This document shows positions 5,259 to 59,462 of a stretch of 64,000 nt of DNA, one piece after another. The position numbers and the translations under genes were made by a program. Each line of letters begins with the position of its first letter. Within the stretch, counting starts at the first letter, position 1. The DNA comes from Terrabacter sp. Ter38 (GTDB taxonomy: Bacteria > Actinomycetota > Actinomycetes > Actinomycetales > Dermatophilaceae), in NCBI RefSeq assembly GCF_024519435.1, contig NZ_JALJRZ010000003.1, positions 62,001 to 126,000 of the forward strand. The letters run 5' to 3'. A model generated the notes under the pieces. It had not been told where the DNA came from and searched no databases. It was given only the letters and a program-made list of their open reading frames with translations.

Positions 5259-5267
5259 CGTCAGCGC

Positions 5268-5367
5268 CGAGAGGCCACGTCCCGGTTGGTGGCCTCTCGA
5301 CGGTGGGGAGGCGGCGGGACGTGGCCTCTCGACGGTGGGGAGGGGGCCGGACGTGGCCTTTCGACGG
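5268..5367. terminator. Inverted repeat plus three direct copies of a 32-base unit
   Basis: Between the convergent ABC ATPase and argA genes, a 17-base arm CGAGAGGCCACGTCCCG (5268-5284) is perfectly complementary to 5315-5331, enough for a strong hairpin. The downstream arm lies within a direct repeat of period 32: GGCCTCTCGACGGTGGGGAG at 5291-5310 and again at 5323-5342, with a third diverged copy, GGCCTTTCGACGGTC, at 5355. Alternative pairings with each copy are possible. It probably acts as a bidirectional terminator whose 3' arm has been tandemly duplicated. Confidence 0.65.
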
Positions 5368-9571: not shown

Positions 9572-12190
9572 TCAGCGCTCCGTGCCGGTCAGCCCCGCGT
9601 CGGGGTAGACCTGGTCGTCGGGCACGGGCGGCCCGGCGGTGATGTTGACCCCGAGTGCCTCGTCGAGGGCAGCGCCCTCGGGAAGCTCCGGGAGGTCGTC
9701 GGACGGGCGGTGCGCGGCGTCCGGGTGGGCCATGTCGGAGAAGGTGAACGTCTCCGCCTTGCCCTCACCCTCGGTGTCGACCTTGACGTACTGGCCGGAC
9801 GCGAAGTCCCCGAACAGGATCCGCTCCGACAGGGCATCCTCGATCTCGCGCTGGATGGTGCGGCGCAGCGGGCGCGCACCGAGCACGGGGTCGTAGCCCT
9901 TCTTGGCGAGCAGGTCCTTGGCGGACTGCGTGAGCTCCATGCCCATGTCCTTGTCCTTGAGCCGCTTGTCGAGCTTGGCGATCTCGAGGTCGACGATCTG
10001 GATGATCTCGTCGCGGCTCAGGTGCGGGAAGACGATGGTGTCGTCGACACGGTTGAGGAACTCGGGCCGGAAGTGCTGCTTGAGCTCGTCGGTGACCTTC
10101 GCCTTCATCCGCTCGTAGTCCGAGCGGCTGTCGGGTCCGGCCGAGAAGCCCATGTTGGCCTTGGAGATGTCCCTCGTGCCGAGGTTGGTCGTCATGATGA
10201 TGACCGTGTTCTTGAAGTCGACCATCCGACCCTGCGAGTCGGTGAGGCGGCCGTCCTCGAGCACCTGCAGCAGCGAGTTGAAGATCTCCGGGTGAGCCTT
10301 CTCGACCTCGTCGAACAGCACGACCGAGAACGGCTTGCGGCGCACCTTCTCGGTGAGCTGGCCGCCCTCCTCGTAGCCGACGTAACCGGGAGGCGAGCCG
10401 AACAGGCGGCTCACGGTGTGCTTCTCGGAGTACTCGGACATGTCGAGCTGGATCAGCGCGTCCTCGCTGCCGAAGAGGAACTCGGCGAGCGTCTTGGCGA
10501 GCTCGGTCTTACCGACACCGGTGGGACCGGCGAAGATGAACGAGCCACCCGGACGGCGCGGGTCCTTGAGGCCGGCACGAGTACGGCGGATCGCCTGGGA
10601 CAGCGCCTTGACGGCGTCGTCCATGCCGACGATGCGCTTGTGCAGCTCGTCCTCCATGTGGAGCAGTCGGCTCGACTCCTCCTCGGTCAGCTTGAAGACG
10701 GGGATGCCGGTGCTCGCAGCCAGGACCTCGGCGATGAGCTCCTCGTCGACCTCGGCCACCACGTCCATGTCGCCCGACTTCCACTGGGCCTCACGGGCGG
10801 CCTTCTCCTGGCGCAGGCGCTTCTCGTCGTCACGGACGCGGGCCGCGCGCTCGAAGTCCTGGCCGTCGATGGCCGACTCCTTCTCGCGCACGAGGGCGGC
10901 GATCTTCTCGTCGAACTCGCGCAGGTCCGGCGGAGCCGTCATCCGACGGATGCGCAGTCGGGCGCCCGCCTCGTCGATGAGGTCGATGGCCTTGTCGGGC
11001 AGGAAGCGGTCGTTGACGTAGCGGTCGGCCATGTTGGCGGCCGCGACGAGCGCACCGTCGGTGATCGTCACGCGGTGGTGGGCCTCGTAGCGGTCACGCA
11101 GACCCTTGAGGATCTCGATGGCGTGCGGCAGCGTCGGCTCCTGCACCTGGATCGGCTGGAAGCGCCGCTCGAGGGCCGAGTCCTTCTCGATGTGCTTGCG
11201 GTACTCGTCGAGCGTCGTCGCACCGATCGTCTGCAGCTCACCGCGGGCGAGCATCGGCTTGAGGATCGACGCGGCGTCGATCGCGCCCTCGGCGGCACCC
11301 GCACCGACGAGCGTGTGGATCTCGTCGATGAAGATGATGATGTCGCCGCGGGTGCGGATCTCCTTGAGAACCTTCTTCAGCCGCTCCTCGAAGTCACCGC
11401 GGTAGCGGCTGCCGGCCACGAGCGAGCCGAGGTCGAGGGTGTAGAGCTGCTTGTCCTTGAGGGTCTCGGGCACCTCGCCCTTGACGATGTCCTGGGCGAG
11501 ACCCTCGACGACGGCGGTCTTGCCGACGCCGGGCTCGCCGATGAGGACCGGGTTGTTCTTCGTGCGGCGGGACAGCACCTGCATGACCCGCTCGATCTCT
11601 TTCTCACGTCCGATGACCGGGTCGAGCTTGCCCTCTCGGGCAGCCTGCGTGAGGTTGCGACCGAACTGGTCGAGCACGAGGGACCCCGCGGGCGTCCCCT
11701 CGGTCTGGCTCTGGCCCACACCCGCGCCGGCCTTCTCGCCGCCCTGGCCACCCTGGTAGCCGGAGAGCAGCTGGATGACCTGCTGGCGGACCTTGTTGAG
11801 CTCCGCGCCGAGCTTGACGAGGACCTGGGCGGCGACGCCCTCGCCCTCGCGGATCAGGCCGAGCAGGATGTGCTCGGTGCCGATGTAGCTGTGGCCGAGC
11901 TGGAGCGCCTCGCGCAGCGAGTACTCGAGGACCTTCTTCGCGCGGGGCGTGAAGGGAATGTGGCCGGTCGGAGCCTGCTGCCCCTGGCCGATGATCTCCT
12001 GGACCTGGGCCCGGACCGCTTCGAGCGAGATGTCGAGCGATTCGAGGGCCTTCGCGGCGACGCCTTCGCCTTCGTGGATCAGACCCAGGAGGATGTGCTC
12101 GGTCCCGATGTAGTTGTGGTTGAGCAGGCGAGCTTCCTCCTGCGCGAGGACAACCACCCTTCGGGCCCTGTCGGTGAACCGTTCGAACAT
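9572..12190 (-). CDS. clpC: ClpC, AAA+ unfoldase of the Clp protease
   Basis: 872-residue hexameric unfoldase that feeds substrates to ClpP. Two N-terminal Clp repeats (residues 1-75 and 76-145, each with an [11 protein letters not shown] motif) are followed by AAA-1 (Walker [10 protein letters not shown] at 218-226, Walker B IIIFIDE at 284-290), a UVR-like helical middle domain with [14 protein letters not shown], and AAA-2 (Walker [10 protein letters not shown] near 550, Walker [12 protein letters not shown]). The C-terminal tail beyond the D2 small domain is acidic and Pro-rich. Start ATG 12190 has AGGAGA five bases upstream. A ClgR-type operator lies 132 bases upstream and a hairpin follows the stop, so it is probably monocistronic. 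The lsr2 gene that often neighbours clpC in actinobacteria is absent here. Confidence 0.97.
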
Positions 12191-12321
12191 GTTCTTCTCC
12201 TGACTGATCGAGAGACATCTCGATGCTATCCGTGCCCGCTGTGGACGAGCACACCCCGACCAACGCCGGTGGTGTCCCTCCTGTTCCCCATCCTGAGCGT
12301 GATCGGCTCAGGTTCGGCCGC

Positions 12322-12340
12322 TGTTCGCCGTGAGCGGACA
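12322..12340 (-). promoter_or_regulatory. ClgR-type operator upstream of clpC
   Basis: The inverted repeat TGTTCGC-N5-GCGGACA (one mismatch between arms) fits the CGC-N5-GCG core of the ClgR recognition sequence described in Corynebacterium and Streptomyces (CGC-Y-N-A-N-R-GCG, read here on the minus strand as CGC-TCACG-GCG followed by AAC). ClgR activates clp genes in these genera. The site is 132 bases upstream of the clpC start. No clgR gene lies in this window, so the regulator is inferred. Confidence 0.65.
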
Positions 12341-12476
12341 GATGCCGGGAGGCGTGTCGTGATCCTTGCGTATGCCGTGTCGTACCCGCCCAGTGTCCGC
12401 CCACCGTGTTGCGGCCGCGTTTCACACCCGTGTCGCGCGGGTCGCCGCGGTCGGTCCGGGAGCCCTTCCGACACCC

Positions 12477-12496
12477 AACCGCGCCATGGCGCGGTT
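12477..12496. repeat. 20-base perfect palindrome
   Basis: AACCGCGCCATGGCGCGGTT, centred on GCGCCATGGCGC. It lies 61 bases beyond the 3' end of the DUF559 gene. Two related palindromes with the core GCGCCGTGGCGC lie on the other side of that gene (13546-13618). Confidence 0.6.
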
Positions 12497-12557
12497 CTGG
12501 GTCGGGACGCCCCGTCATCCGGCGCGGAACTGCGCCCGGGCGCGCTTGTCGGCGCCC

Positions 12558-13490
12558 TCATGCCGGCAGGGCGATGTCGCCCGACCTGCTCGGGAAGTGT
12601 CGGCGCCACTCGTGCCGGAGCCGGGGTACCGGCATACCTGCTCGGCGCATGGCCCGCGTGATCCTCGCGAGCGTGTTCGCCGGCGTCGAGTAGATGTCCC
12701 GGGACACGACCACGAGCCTGCGGATCCGCTCGTCGTCGAGGGCCTCGTCGCGGCCGATGTCGCTGAGCCACTGCTCGTCGGACTCGGCGTGCTGCCTGCC
12801 GTCGTACTCGATGATCAGCCGGAAGGGGAGGTAGGAGAGGTCGTAGCGCCGGAGCAGGGTCCCGTCGCCGTCGTGCACCCGGTGGTCGACCTCGGGCTCG
12901 GGCAGGCCGGCGAGGACGATGAGCAGCCGCAGGCGGGTCTCCATCGGCGAGTCGACGCCGGCTCTCACGAGCCTTGCCGCTCGCCGGGCCAGCCTCGAGT
13001 GGGGGCCGCGGTGCTTCTCAGCCAGGGCAACCAGCTCGTCAGGTGTGCAGCGCTTCTTGCGGACCAACGAGTCGCCGAGCACGACGAGATCGACGAGCGT
13101 CAGGCAGTGGGCCAGGTCCAGAAACGTCTGAACCGGCGTCGTCACACGAAGCCCTCGGAAGAGGACGACCTCCTGCCCCTCCTTGACACGGTGGGCCGTG
13201 ATTCCGTCCCGTCGTGTCCGGTTGCGCGGACTCGAGACGTGGATGTCGGGGTGAGCAGGGACGATCCCACCCCACAGTGACGCCGCCGTGTGGTGCGACA
13301 CATGGCTGCCCGGTGTGACCACGAGGAGGGCGGCCTCGATCCGGACGCGCAACGTGACGGGAACCGTTCGCTCGACATGGACCCCACGGAAGAGCGCGAC
13401 GTGCGAGCGGCGGAGCCGATCATCGGTGTTCCCGGCCGCCGTCGCATCAGCCCGTCGGACCGGAGGTGTGCTGCGATCTGGGCGAGTCAT
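12558..13490 (-). CDS. DUF559 (Vsr-like endonuclease fold) protein with AbiEi-like N-terminal region
   Basis: About 310 residues. The N-terminal half (RSHVALFRGVHV, the SHHTAASLWG segment, then LRVTTPVQTFLDLA) matches the winged-helix/AbiEi-antitoxin-like region found in many actinobacterial proteins annotated as DUF559 or type IV TA AbiEi family. The C-terminal half has the DUF559 PD-(D/E)xK-like core, with PMETRLRLLI as the first acidic helix, PEPEVDHRV, and RLIIEYDGRQH as the catalytic E-x-D/Q-like strand, so a nuclease fold is likely. Function in this family is not established. ATG 13490 is my preferred start; the frame continues to 13583. It is flanked on both sides by similar palindromes, which suggests either operators or a mobile-like association. 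Confidence 0.7.
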   Translation of the reverse strand: MTRPDRSTPPVRRADATAAGNTDDRLRRSHVALFRGVHVERTVPVTLRVRIEAALLVVTPGSHVSHHTAASLWGGIVPAHPDIHVSSPRNRTRRDGITAHRVKEGQEVVLFRGLRVTTPVQTFLDLAHCLTLVDLVVLGDSLVRKKRCTPDELVALAEKHRGPHSRLARRAARLVRAGVDSPMETRLRLLIVLAGLPEPEVDHRVHDGDGTLLRRYDLSYLPFRLIIEYDGRQHAESDEQWLSDIGRDEALDDERIRRLVVVSRDIYSTPANTLARITRAMRRAGMPVPRLRHEWRRHFPSRSGDIALPA

Positions 13491-13545
13491 GGTGGAAGCC
13501 TGCCCGGGCGATGGCAATGCGCGAGACGCCTCTCCACAGGTGGGC

Positions 13546-13618
13546 AGAAGCGCGCCGTGGCGCGCTTCTCGTTGTTCGGACACCCATCGTGACGTGCGAA
13601 AGTGCGCCGTGGCGCACT
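13546..13618. repeat. Two related palindromes upstream of the DUF559 gene
   Basis: The first has 11-base arms AGAAGCGCGCC (13546-13556) and GGCGCGCTTCT (13559-13569) around a central GT. The second has 8-base arms AGTGCGCC (13601-13608) and GGCGCACT (13611-13618) around a central GT. Both contain GCGCCGTGGCGC, one base different from the core of the palindrome on the other side of the gene (12477-12496). Confidence 0.6.
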
Positions 13619-13644
13619 CTTGGGCGTATGCCGGTGGGCCGAGG

Positions 13645-14148
13645 TCAGGGGTTGGGGTCGGGGTGGGGGTGACCGTGGGCGAAACGGTCGTGGAGGTCGC
13701 GGACCTCGGCCTCGAGCTCGGGGGCCGGACCGTCGACGACCGCGGCCGGCACGACGTCGCGGATCGACAGTGCCGCGACCGGGGCCGGAGCCGACCCCCA
13801 CGCCGACCGCCACGCGGTCAGCTGGGCCGAGCTCACGGCATACGCGATCCGGCCGAGGCCGACCCACGCGTGCGCGGCCGAGCACATGGGGCAGTGCTCG
13901 CCCGAGGTGTAGACGGTGGCGCCCGCCCGCTCCGAGGCGTTCAGGTGGGCACCGGCCCAGCGCGCGATGGCGAACTCGGGGTGCTGGGTGGCCTCGAGTG
14001 CGACGACGTGGTTGTGGTCCTCGAAGAGCACCTCCCCGTGACCCGAGACGAGGACGGAGCCGAACGGCTCGTCCCCGCGCTCGAGGGCCAGGCGCGCGAG
14101 CGAGACGGCTCGCCGCAGGTGCTCGAGGTCGGTGGCATCGAGGCTCAT
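13645..14148 (-). CDS. CMP/dCMP- or guanine-deaminase-like zinc deaminase
   Basis: 167-residue cytosolic deaminase of the cytidine deaminase superfamily. The zinc site is visible as HPEFAIA (His ligand and catalytic Glu, the H-x-E motif) and EHCPMC (the two Cys ligands of P-C-x2-C type). General architecture matches bacterial nucleoside/guanine deaminases, which act on a free base or nucleoside; TadA-type tRNA editing is less likely given the sequence context. The C-terminus ends in a short His/Pro/Asp-rich tail. Start ATG 14148 overlaps the methyltransferase stop (ATGA), so the two are translationally coupled. Confidence 0.8.
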   Translation of the reverse strand: MSLDATDLEHLRRAVSLARLALERGDEPFGSVLVSGHGEVLFEDHNHVVALEATQHPEFAIARWAGAHLNASERAGATVYTSGEHCPMCSAAHAWVGLGRIAYAVSSAQLTAWRSAWGSAPAPVAALSIRDVVPAAVVDGPAPELEAEVRDLHDRFAHGHPHPDPNP

Positions 14149-57593: not shown

Positions 57594-59462
57594 TCAGGGG
57601 CGGTCGTCGCGGTGGGGCACCACCTGCTGGGCCAGCTCGCGCAGCCAGGTGGCCTCGGCCCGACGGTCGGCCCGCGACACCGGGACCTCGAGGACCCTGG
57701 TGCCGGAGGGGGACTCGGCGAGCGCCTCGGCCAGGCGGCCGAGGTCGTCGACGCGTTCGTATGCCGTGTGGTGCGCCGCGCACAGCGCCTCGAGGTCGGT
57801 GCCGTGCGGGGTCGCGAAGACGCGCTCGAAGGCGCTCGCATAGCGGGTGTCGCCCTGCTCGAGGGTGCTGAAGATGGCGCCGCCGTCGTCGCTGAGGACG
57901 ACGAAGGTGAGGTCGGGCCGCGGCTGGCCGCGGCCCATGAGCAGGCCGTTCGTGTCGTGGAGGAAGGTGAGATCGCCGAGGTAGGCGATGCTGCGCGCGG
58001 CTCGCGGGCGGCCGAGGGCGACGCCGACGGCCGTCGAGACCATGCCGTCGATGCCGGCGAGCCCACGGTTGCCGACGACGAAGCGGTGCTCGAGCGGCGT
58101 CCACGGTGTGGCCATGACATCGAGGTCGCGCACGGGGTTCGACGAGCCGACGACGAGCGTCGTGTCGGCGGCGACCGCGGCCCCCACGACGGCCGCCACG
58201 GCGAGGGGCGACAGGCCGCCGTGCCCCGTGGCCCGGGACGGATCTCCTTCGGGCCCAGCGAGTCCCGCGTCGACGAGGCCGCCCAGCTGCTGGTCGGCGC
58301 CGCGCCAGGCGTCGAACCAGGCCGGGTCGTCGGCCGCCTCGACCCGGGGCACGACGTCGAGCACGCGCGCCACCCTGCCGGGGTCGGTGGCCACGCCGTC
58401 ACGACCACGGACGGACAGGACCTCGAGGCCCGGGTCACTGATGAGACTGGTGACGGGTCGGGACAGCGTCGGGTGGCCGACGACGACGACGCGTTCGACG
58501 TCCCCGCGCAGGTCGGTGGTGAGCAGCAGCCGTCCCGTGCGCAGGGCCTGCCGCCCGATGCGCGCGCCCGAGGTGGGTTCCGCGACGAGCGGCCAGCCCG
58601 CAGCCTCGGCGAGCAGACGTGCGGCCGGTCCGGCGTCGTCCCCGGCGACGACGACCGTGCGCGGCCCGAGCGGCAGCACCTCGCCGTCGGTCGGCACGGA
58701 CACCGACGCCTCGACGTTCCCGTCCCGACGCGACCCGGGCTGCAACTGCGCCAGGGCGGAGTTGGCGGGCTGGTCTGGCGCGTCTGGCTGCGGGAACTGC
58801 GCCAGGGCGGAGTTGGCGTGCTGGTCTGGCGCGTCTGGCTGTGGGAACTGCGCCAGGGCGGAGTTGGCGTGCGGTGCAGTGCCGGTCGTCGCGGTGGAGT
58901 CGGACCTGGGGCGCTGCCACCACGTGTCGGGGTCAGCGCCCGAGGGCATGAGGTCGCCGTCGAGCTGGACGTTGAGCTGGGTCGGCCCGCGCCGCGAGCA
59001 CGCGTGGGCCACGACGCCGGCCAGCTCGTCGTCGGGGGTGGCTGCCGTCAGGTCGTGACACGTCGCGAAGGTGCCGAAGATGCCGGCCTGGTCGGTCGTC
59101 TGGTTGGCGCCCGTGCCACGCAGGCGGTCGGGCCGGTCGGCACTGACGACGACGAGCCGGCGCCCCGTGTGGTGCGCCTCCATGACCGCCGGGAGCAGGT
59201 TGCCGACGGCCGTGCCCGAGGTCGTGACCACGGCGACCGGTCGGCGTGACCCGGTGGCCAGACCCAGGGCGAGGAAGCCGGCGGACCGCTCGTCGACACG
59301 CACGTGCAGGCGCAGGTCGCCGGCCCGGTCGGCCGCGTCGAGGGCGAGGGCGAAGGGGGCCGACCGAGACCCCGGTGCGAGCACGACGTCACGCACGCCA
59401 GCCAGCCACAGCTGCTGGAGCACGTGCAGCGCGACCTCCGGTGCACTCCGACGCCCGGTCAC
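57594..59462 (-). CDS. menD: MenD, SEPHCHC synthase (with internal repeat insertion)
   Basis: 622 residues, ThDP enzyme joining 2-oxoglutarate to isochorismate. The Pyr domain shows VVLAPGSRSAPFALAL and TTSGTAVGNLLPAVMEA with the catalytic Glu of this family; the PP domain shows IAYLGDLTFLHDTNGLL (G-D-x-x, Mg/ThDP site). Between the Pyr and middle domains (residues about 198-243) lies an unusual insert of a 17-residue unit repeated 2.5 times (NSALAQFPQPDAPDQ), from a 51-base DNA repeat. I chose GTG 59462 with GGAG upstream, 11 bases after menF. Confidence 0.93.
   Translation of the reverse strand: MTGRRSAPEVALHVLQQLWLAGVRDVVLAPGSRSAPFALALDAADRAGDLRLHVRVDERSAGFLALGLATGSRRPVAVVTTSGTAVGNLLPAVMEAHHTGRRLVVVSADRPDRLRGTGANQTTDQAGIFGTFATCHDLTAATPDDELAGVVAHACSRRGPTQLNVQLDGDLMPSGADPDTWWQRPRSDSTATTGTAPHANSALAQFPQPDAPDQHANSALAQFPQPDAPDQPANSALAQLQPGSRRDGNVEASVSVPTDGEVLPLGPRTVVVAGDDAGPAARLLAEAAGWPLVAEPTSGARIGRQALRTGRLLLTTDLRGDVERVVVVGHPTLSRPVTSLISDPGLEVLSVRGRDGVATDPGRVARVLDVVPRVEAADDPAWFDAWRGADQQLGGLVDAGLAGPEGDPSRATGHGGLSPLAVAAVVGAAVAADTTLVVGSSNPVRDLDVMATPWTPLEHRFVVGNRGLAGIDGMVSTAVGVALGRPRAARSIAYLGDLTFLHDTNGLLMGRGQPRPDLTFVVLSDDGGAIFSTLEQGDTRYASAFERVFATPHGTDLEALCAAHHTAYERVDDLGRLAEALAESPSGTRVLEVPVSRADRRAEATWLRELAQQVVPHRDDRP
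58744..58872. repeat. 51-base tandem repeat (2.5 copies) inside menD
   Basis: Copies at 58744-58794, 58795-58845 and a partial third at 58846-58872, nearly identical (one to three substitutions). The period is a multiple of three, so copy-number change preserves the menD frame. Read on the minus strand it encodes a 17-residue Pro/Gln/Asp/Ala linker unit. Confidence 0.92.

Follow-up and report, generated by a model that had tools for sequence, protein, structure and literature searches.

DUF559/MTES_1575-type nuclease genes of Terrabacter and its relatives are associated with private, regularly spaced repeats: a probable REPtron-like unit

Why should a single nuclease-like gene stand between members of one family of palindromes? 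The question is raised by a 64,000-nucleotide stretch of the genome of Terrabacter sp. Ter38 (the window, whose positions are used below unless a contig or locus is named). The gene, at 12558-13490 on the minus strand, encodes a DUF559/MTES_1575-like nuclease of 310 aa and has as neighbours a deaminase-domain gene (13645-14148) and clpC (9572-12190), all three being on the same strand. A sequence-only reading had described three palindromes around it; all three are present, but the count was too low, as scoring the window against AASYGCGCCRYGGCGCRSTT brought out a fourth. On the 3' side of the gene, AACCGCGCCATGGCGCGGTT with its 10-bp arms (12477-12496) is accompanied at exactly 51 bp by the weaker AACTGCGCCCGGGCGCGCTT (12528-12547). 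On the 5' side lie AGAAGCGCGCCGTGGCGCGCTTCT (13546-13569), whose 10-bp stem encloses CGTG, and, 52 bp from it, a palindrome at 13600-13619 with the perfect arms AGTGCGCCGTGGCGCACT at 13601-13618. The arrangement is therefore one pair of palindromes per gene side, with starting points 12477 and 12528 (51 bp) and 13548 and 13600 (52 bp). An alternative GTG start of the gene at 13583 would overrun the palindrome at 13546-13569. Searching window positions 12300-13800 against Rfam gave no match at E≤0.1.

The protein seems to be made up of an AbiEi-like N-terminal part and a Vsr-like PD-(D/E)XK C-terminal part. Across 31 homologues E184, E228, D244 and R247 are invariant and D217 and D230 are at least 90% conserved, the acidic ones among them being of the PD-(D/E)XK type and presumably part of the active site. 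At E≤0.1 the models PF18741 (MTES_1575 Vsr-like REase) and PF04480 match 29 and 23 of these 31 homologues respectively, and the AbiEi models of PADLOC match 30 of them; the window protein itself scores below the Pfam gathering thresholds for the nuclease models and has a profile match to 3hrl with E 9e-4. Its AlphaFold model is poor (mean pLDDT 61.6), and a Foldseek search with this low-confidence model returned no match at E≤0.001. Excerpts of PMC3710099 assign the Vsr fold to the MTES_1575 REase, and by the profile matches of most homologues the proteins considered here probably belong to the same fold family as these DUF559/MTES_1575 Vsr-like REases. The AbiEi-like part is shared with the AbiE toxin-antitoxin systems (AbiEi/AbiEii), a candidate that we rejected as the two neighbours encode the deaminase and ClpC and no AbiEii toxin gene is adjacent. 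Of 394 genomes sampled from the same class, 182 have a homologue at E≤1e-30. None of the 180 viral stretches that fitted a search pattern proved to be a relative, and three of 72,556 plasmid records carry a homologue, all below 60% identity. Pfam labels DUF559 as a protein of unknown function, and we know of no established role for the DUF559/AbiEi-like family. Among the literature matches listed there was none for a dedicated repeat family of DUF559/MTES_1575 proteins, and among those listed from open-licence PMC articles none connected dispersed palindromic repeats with DUF559 or with proteins of the AbiEi type.

The association of DUF559 genes with private repeats is nearly certain from the flanks of the homologous genes, which we compared by taking the best ungapped 18-mer match, in either orientation, between the 350 bp upstream and the 250 bp downstream of each gene. 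Matches of at least 17/18 were found in 70 of 100 flank pairs, and in 35 of 4300 comparisons between flanks of different genes. This held in each of the three sets of flanks: 42 of 60 genes in the first (different-gene comparisons 30/3540), 13 of 20 genes from nine other families in the second (2/380) and 15 of 20 loci, mostly new paralogues, in the third (3/380). Control genes drawn from the same stretches and the window reached this level in 1 of 213 cases (Fisher's test of 42/60 versus 1/213, p=7e-34), and at the laxer threshold of at least 16/18 the figures were 51/60 for the DUF559 genes of the first set and 15/213 for the controls. The 100 tests represent 97 distinct genes, three having been entered twice (L094/L192, L087/L322 and L095/L335), and the first set excludes the duplicates L096-L098 and L100, as well as L208 (shorter than 3600 bases) and L184 (the same gene as L078). 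The 30 pairs that fell below 17/18 include the window gene, which scored 16/18, with its true partner fourth of 60 possible ones, owing to wear in the second of its downstream palindromes. That DUF559 homologues might lack such repeats everywhere, which the sequence-only reading had named as a refutation, disagrees with these 70 matched pairs. No single motif serves the whole protein family; it varies with the gene (e.g. CGAAGATCTTCG, CCCGCACGTGCGGG, CCGATATCGG and GCCACTTCTCGTGGC). Protein identity tracks the similarity of the flanks (Mantel r 0.46, 0/2000 permutations), a correlation that is confounded by ancestry and orthologous flanks.

Along with the matched motifs, the spacing of the palindromes recurs. 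A 20-mer repeated (at least 15/20) at an offset of 51-53 bp occurs in at least one flank at 25 of 31 loci and in both flanks at 18 of them, as counted by hand from a listing with the duplicates L096-L098 and L100 left out. Stretches of up to 20 kb were taken from 20 relatives, contig ends shortening three of them. Within 450 bp of the DUF559 genes (18 kb in all) they contain 69 repeats (at least 16/20) with an offset of 51 or 52; the remaining 340 kb contain 16, part of which come from a true solo array. When the near-gene repeats are sorted by offset, 15 loci fall at 51 and 7 at 52, with 0-2 at each of the other offsets from 30 to 80; given that 51 is a multiple of 3, the coding background was compared with the neighbouring multiples of 3.

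The same repeats are also found away from the gene. With up to 3 mismatches AAGTGCGCCATGGCGCACTT has 10 sites in the 4.83-Mb Terrabacter genome and its reversed pattern has none; all 10 sites are members of arrays, and 2 of them adjoin the DUF559 gene. Over 464 kb of contig C33 there are 12 sites of at least 17/20 (reversed control 1) and 38 of at least 16/20 (reversed control 22), and when sites scoring 15/20 or better are paired, the two are spaced by 51 bp in four cases and by 52 bp in two, with no other spacing from 30 to 74 seen more than once. The 12-base core GCGCCGTGGCGC, with 33 matches against 6 for the reversed control, was discarded as a search string, being too weak a marker: stems are just 4-5 bp long at 26 of the 30 core loci read, a few of which are still array members. 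The arrays comprise 2-4 palindromes at a spacing of 50-53 bp, separated by spacers of varying sequence. Besides the two bracketing the DUF559 gene, the genome holds at least six arrays that lack a gene, namely those at C11:582076, C11:750588, C11:797374, C51:249478 and C54:5794, and that at window positions 58744-58865 (C33:120744), in which AACTGCGCCAGGGCGGAGTT is present three times at exactly 51-bp spacing; the number may exceed six since the search patterns were strict. Similar palindromes at unrelated loci had been named as a finding that would speak against a link with the gene, and six such arrays indeed exist, but they fit a dispersed family with one cognate gene. Adjoining a four-palindrome array on C54 we also observed a tandem 9-bp repeat, GCCCAGCAG/GCCCAGCCG (L040:2661-2797), located at a gene 3' end.

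The Terrabacter genome encodes three diverged DUF559 homologues, with one gene copy seen per motif. The second of these (C33:374266-375096; 32% identity) stands between arms made up of four copies of GTGGCCTCTCGACGG in inverted and four in direct orientation, with a period of 32 bp. Over the 464 kb of C33, GTGGCCTCTCGACGG has, at a threshold of 13/15 or better, 17 sites on the plus strand and 16 on the minus strand, as opposed to 1 and 2 for the reversed control. Beyond the arms of the gene four sites are scattered, and the rest fall into four gene-less clusters. In each cluster the minus copies come first and the plus copies follow less than 100 bp away, and at C33:457003 the arms join in a long hairpin. 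One of the four lies in the window at 5264-5367 and consists of one inverted copy followed by three direct copies with a period of 32. Such clusters would look like what is expected of non-autonomous forms of the gene-bearing unit. The gap orthologous to that of the 5264-5367 element is empty in Intrasporangium flavum (G036, L169), where about 11 bp separate the aligned blocks; it contains a shorter version of the element in G007 and related elements in G005, G006 and G008. By eye, the corresponding site of G005 (L165:2280-4720) holds copies of the repeat together with about 2.4 kb of extra DNA with a transporter-like gene. The third homologue (C11:777006-777605, L037; 26% identity) is DUF559-like and has no flanking arrays.

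Around distant homologues arrays often give way, as judged by eye, to flanking inverted repeats of about 55-65 bp. In the distant family f38, 12 of the 22 genomes have between 1 and 50 copies of the element GATCATGGAG...CTCCATGATC, gene flanks included, and its reversed control gave 0 in all. Both flanks of the DUF559 gene carry it at L245, L246, L247, L249 and L254, and both carry a variant, GATCATGGGC, at L250; the pattern is found on one side at L243, L244, L248, L251, L255 and L256, and on neither side of the more distant homologues at L252, L253 and L259-L265. While the pattern allowed distances of 36-64 bp, the distance between the GATC half-sites is 51 bp in 18 and 50 bp in 2 of 20 elements among the matches listed, and thus a fixed spacing of about 51 bp recurs in this distant family. 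In 18 of these 20 elements (two that are one base shorter were left out), the inner stem stays paired despite sequence changes: 90.7% of its cells are paired, versus 34-53% when the arms are slid, and covariation is 0.189 versus 0.100 after shuffling (0/500 shuffles). Pair changes on both sides of the stem number 8, not above the shuffles (7.3; 223/500), and the invariance of the outer stem follows from the pattern used to find the elements. In terms of co-occurrence, a close homologue (70-100% identity to P0002, split in two frames in G363) is encoded by 9 of the 12 repeat-bearing genomes and a homologue, flanked on both sides by a variant repeat, by 1 of the 10 genomes without the pattern, counts that are confounded by ancestry. 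Two further repeat-bearing genomes, G334 and G440, have a distant homologue only (46% and 41%), the fetched flanks of which lack the pattern, and in G343, with 47 repeats, a homologue was not found at E≤1e-15. The repeats of G343 (L223-L236) may have outlived their gene. In G424, GGAGT is present in both flanks of the gene and in the two other genomic copies, and GGAGAA in nearly all other listed copies.

A further set of dispersed elements of about 84 bp was noticed in G015 and G149 (L149-L159), with the form TTTCT-GCGCCATGGCGC ... GCGCCATGGCGC-AGAAA and an inner inverted repeat, CCACCGGCGC/GCGCCGGTGG; their GCGCCATGGCGC palindromes are 60-61 bp apart. The prediction that these elements would match the flanks of a G015 DUF559 gene failed for the two G015 homologues tested.

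The distribution of the 20-bp palindrome among 78 relatives, this genome included, is uneven: Intrasporangium flavum has 21 sites, Terrabacter sp. Ter38 10, and G007 and G008 6 each, with the remaining 74 having 0-2 (reversed control 0-3). The DUF559 gene of I. flavum (74% identity) is preceded by three palindromes and followed by two, 51 bp apart, and nine further arrays lie away from it; one array of G007 comprises five palindromes at exactly 51-bp spacing. G007 and G008 possess solo arrays of GCGCC(A/G)TGGCGC, yet the flanks of their own DUF559 genes hold other motifs. Empty sites, which the sequence-only reading had proposed to look for among strains, do exist. The clpC region was found in 8 of the 9 genus genomes searched, and in two of these 8, G001 and G004, the deaminase gene and clpC are adjacent, the DUF559 gene being absent together with, as judged by eye, the palindromes. 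G004 carries a DUF559 homologue elsewhere, and G003 has a broken DUF559 gene with a worn array. In G006 an array stands at the 3' end of the deaminase gene (L166:17141-17320), about 7 kb from the DUF559 gene next to which it would usually stand, something having intervened.

These observations bear on the possibility that the gene and its repeat arms constitute a transposon with the arrays as terminal repeats, the gene-less copies then being MITE-like deletion derivatives and not REPIN-like copies dependent on an enzyme in trans. The absence of gene and arrays as a unit in G001 and G004 is what such an element would leave, and the second family, with its order of minus arms, gene and plus arms and a gene-less equivalent at four places, has the matching structure. 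However, one gene copy per motif in the Terrabacter genome is not the picture expected of a transposon, no target-site duplication was seen by eye at the empty site, and the gene seems to move rarely, given that its position beside clpC is common to Terrabacter-group genomes, Intrasporangium and two further relatives. Moreover, to our knowledge PD-(D/E)XK proteins include no known class of stand-alone transposases. We hence consider the transposon unlikely.

The location of the solo copies was examined with a simple gene caller. The gene ends facing 20 solo 51-bp arrays are 24 three-prime and 6 five-prime, and those facing 20 f38 elements are 22 three-prime and 7 five-prime; the G015-type elements lack such a bias, with 8 versus 7 (n=10 of the 11 elements of G015 and G149, L158 near a contig end being left out). 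Three loci of the 51-bp and f38 sets and one of the G015-type set seemingly lie inside a long frame. In the 13 solo-array gaps with both neighbours called, the neighbours are convergent in 8, tandem in 5 and divergent in 0, against an own-genome background of 28 convergent, 55 tandem and 23 divergent gaps. This weakens the suggestion of the sequence-only reading that the palindromes are operators of an AbiEi-type regulator. In its full form this explanation would have the AbiEi-like part controlling its own gene and a scattered regulon, with the nuclease fold serving something else. It draws on the AbiEi-like part detected in nearly all homologues, on the natural operator shape of a palindrome and on the fixed 51-bp spacing, which suits a protein binding one face of the DNA. 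Counting against operators are the excess of three-prime ends and the lack of divergent gaps, the presence of repeats also on the downstream side of the DUF559 gene, the strong differences in motif and copy number from one relative to the next, and the retention of the acidic residues of the nuclease. Taken together, this makes an operator function quite improbable.

The preference for gene 3' ends (24 of 30 facing ends for the 51-bp arrays and 22 of 29 for f38) and the capacity of both kinds of element to fold into hairpins would, on the other hand, suit terminators, or hairpins protecting the mRNAs of neighbouring genes at their 3' ends, with the link to the nuclease being secondary. Neither a private motif common to both flanks of the DUF559 genes nor the 51-bp spacing is predicted by such a function, the orthologous gaps are empty in relatives, and several G015-type elements have outer T runs at the 5' side and A runs at the 3' side, i.e. 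the reverse of a terminator. We regard this explanation as very improbable.

The likeness to REP sequences around RAYT genes, to which the sequence-only reading had pointed, fares better, as private matched repeats occur on both sides of the gene, copies are dispersed and some families form inverted pairs. Like the REPIN/RAYT systems in the excerpts of PMC3116915, PMC3733652 and PMC6006769, the present system has a gene located between its own palindromic repeats with a private motif, and gene-less copies dispersed between genes, partly as inverted pairs capable of forming hairpins; the orientation of the 51-bp copies of the window is not readable because the unit is itself palindromic. Unlike what these excerpts describe, the enzyme combines AbiEi-like and Vsr-like nuclease parts in place of an HUH Y1 transposase, the window palindromes, inspected by eye, do not end in a GTAG or CGTC tag, and the repeats recur regularly within arrays, at a constant period of 51 bp (32 bp for the second family). 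A search for the RAYT-class domain PF01797 found it in 0 of 10 genomes, whereas in a control search 5 of 14 named genomes proved positive, and hence this is not a RAYT system. The architecture is REPtron-like, but the system is not a member of the REPtrons. By the same result, the idea that a RAYT encoded elsewhere moves ordinary REPs and that DUF559 is a frequent bystander can be set aside, despite the resemblance of the repeat architecture to REPINs (PMC3116915), the more so as DUF559 genes have private motifs. A CRISPR-like array with captured spacers, to which 20-bp repeats, 31-bp spacers and a constant period might point, is equally far-fetched, as the repeats vary within arrays, some spacers (in the G007 array) or whole units are duplicated, and one array of the Terrabacter genome has no match in 50,697 phage records. 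MIRU, BIME and other tandem intergenic repeats are likewise short tandem units between genes, but we know of no dedicated flanked nuclease gene for any of them.

We therefore favour, as the probable though by no means assured explanation, that the DUF559/MTES_1575-type nuclease and its family of palindromic or inverted repeats form one coevolving REPtron-like unit, in which we infer that the enzyme binds, cuts and disperses the repeats. According to this proposal, a typical DUF559 gene would lie between two clusters of its own repeat, and gene-less pairs or short arrays with fixed spacing (51 bp, or 32 bp for the second gene) would have spread into the spacers between genes, mostly to gene 3' ends. 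A dimer of the enzyme may bind two half-sites at the fixed spacing and nick or cut the repeat DNA, possibly in the form of extruded hairpins, upon which repair or rejoining could copy repeats to new places and lengthen or shorten arrays. Whether the PD-(D/E)XK (Vsr-like) nuclease with its DNA-binding AbiEi part in this way generates its palindromic repeats, preserves them and propagates them, through cuts and their repair at paired half-sites a fixed distance apart, is to our mind evenly poised; it would then represent a genomic parasite, or a domesticated system, of a class that is widespread in this actinobacterial class and of an origin independent of RAYTs.

In this class of bacteria, we conclude, DUF559/AbiEi-like nucleases commonly have private dispersed repeats as their partners. 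If the proposed unit is real, it would provide a role for the large gene family annotated as DUF559 or AbiEi in these bacteria, and the link to private, regularly spaced and dispersed repeats offers a direct and cheap test of DUF559 function. The unit would further exemplify a repeat whose dedicated enzyme is not an HUH transposase. As the excerpts of PMC3733652 describe CGTC repeats of other bacteria without a known dedicated transposase, a different class of enzyme acting on such repeats would be of general interest.
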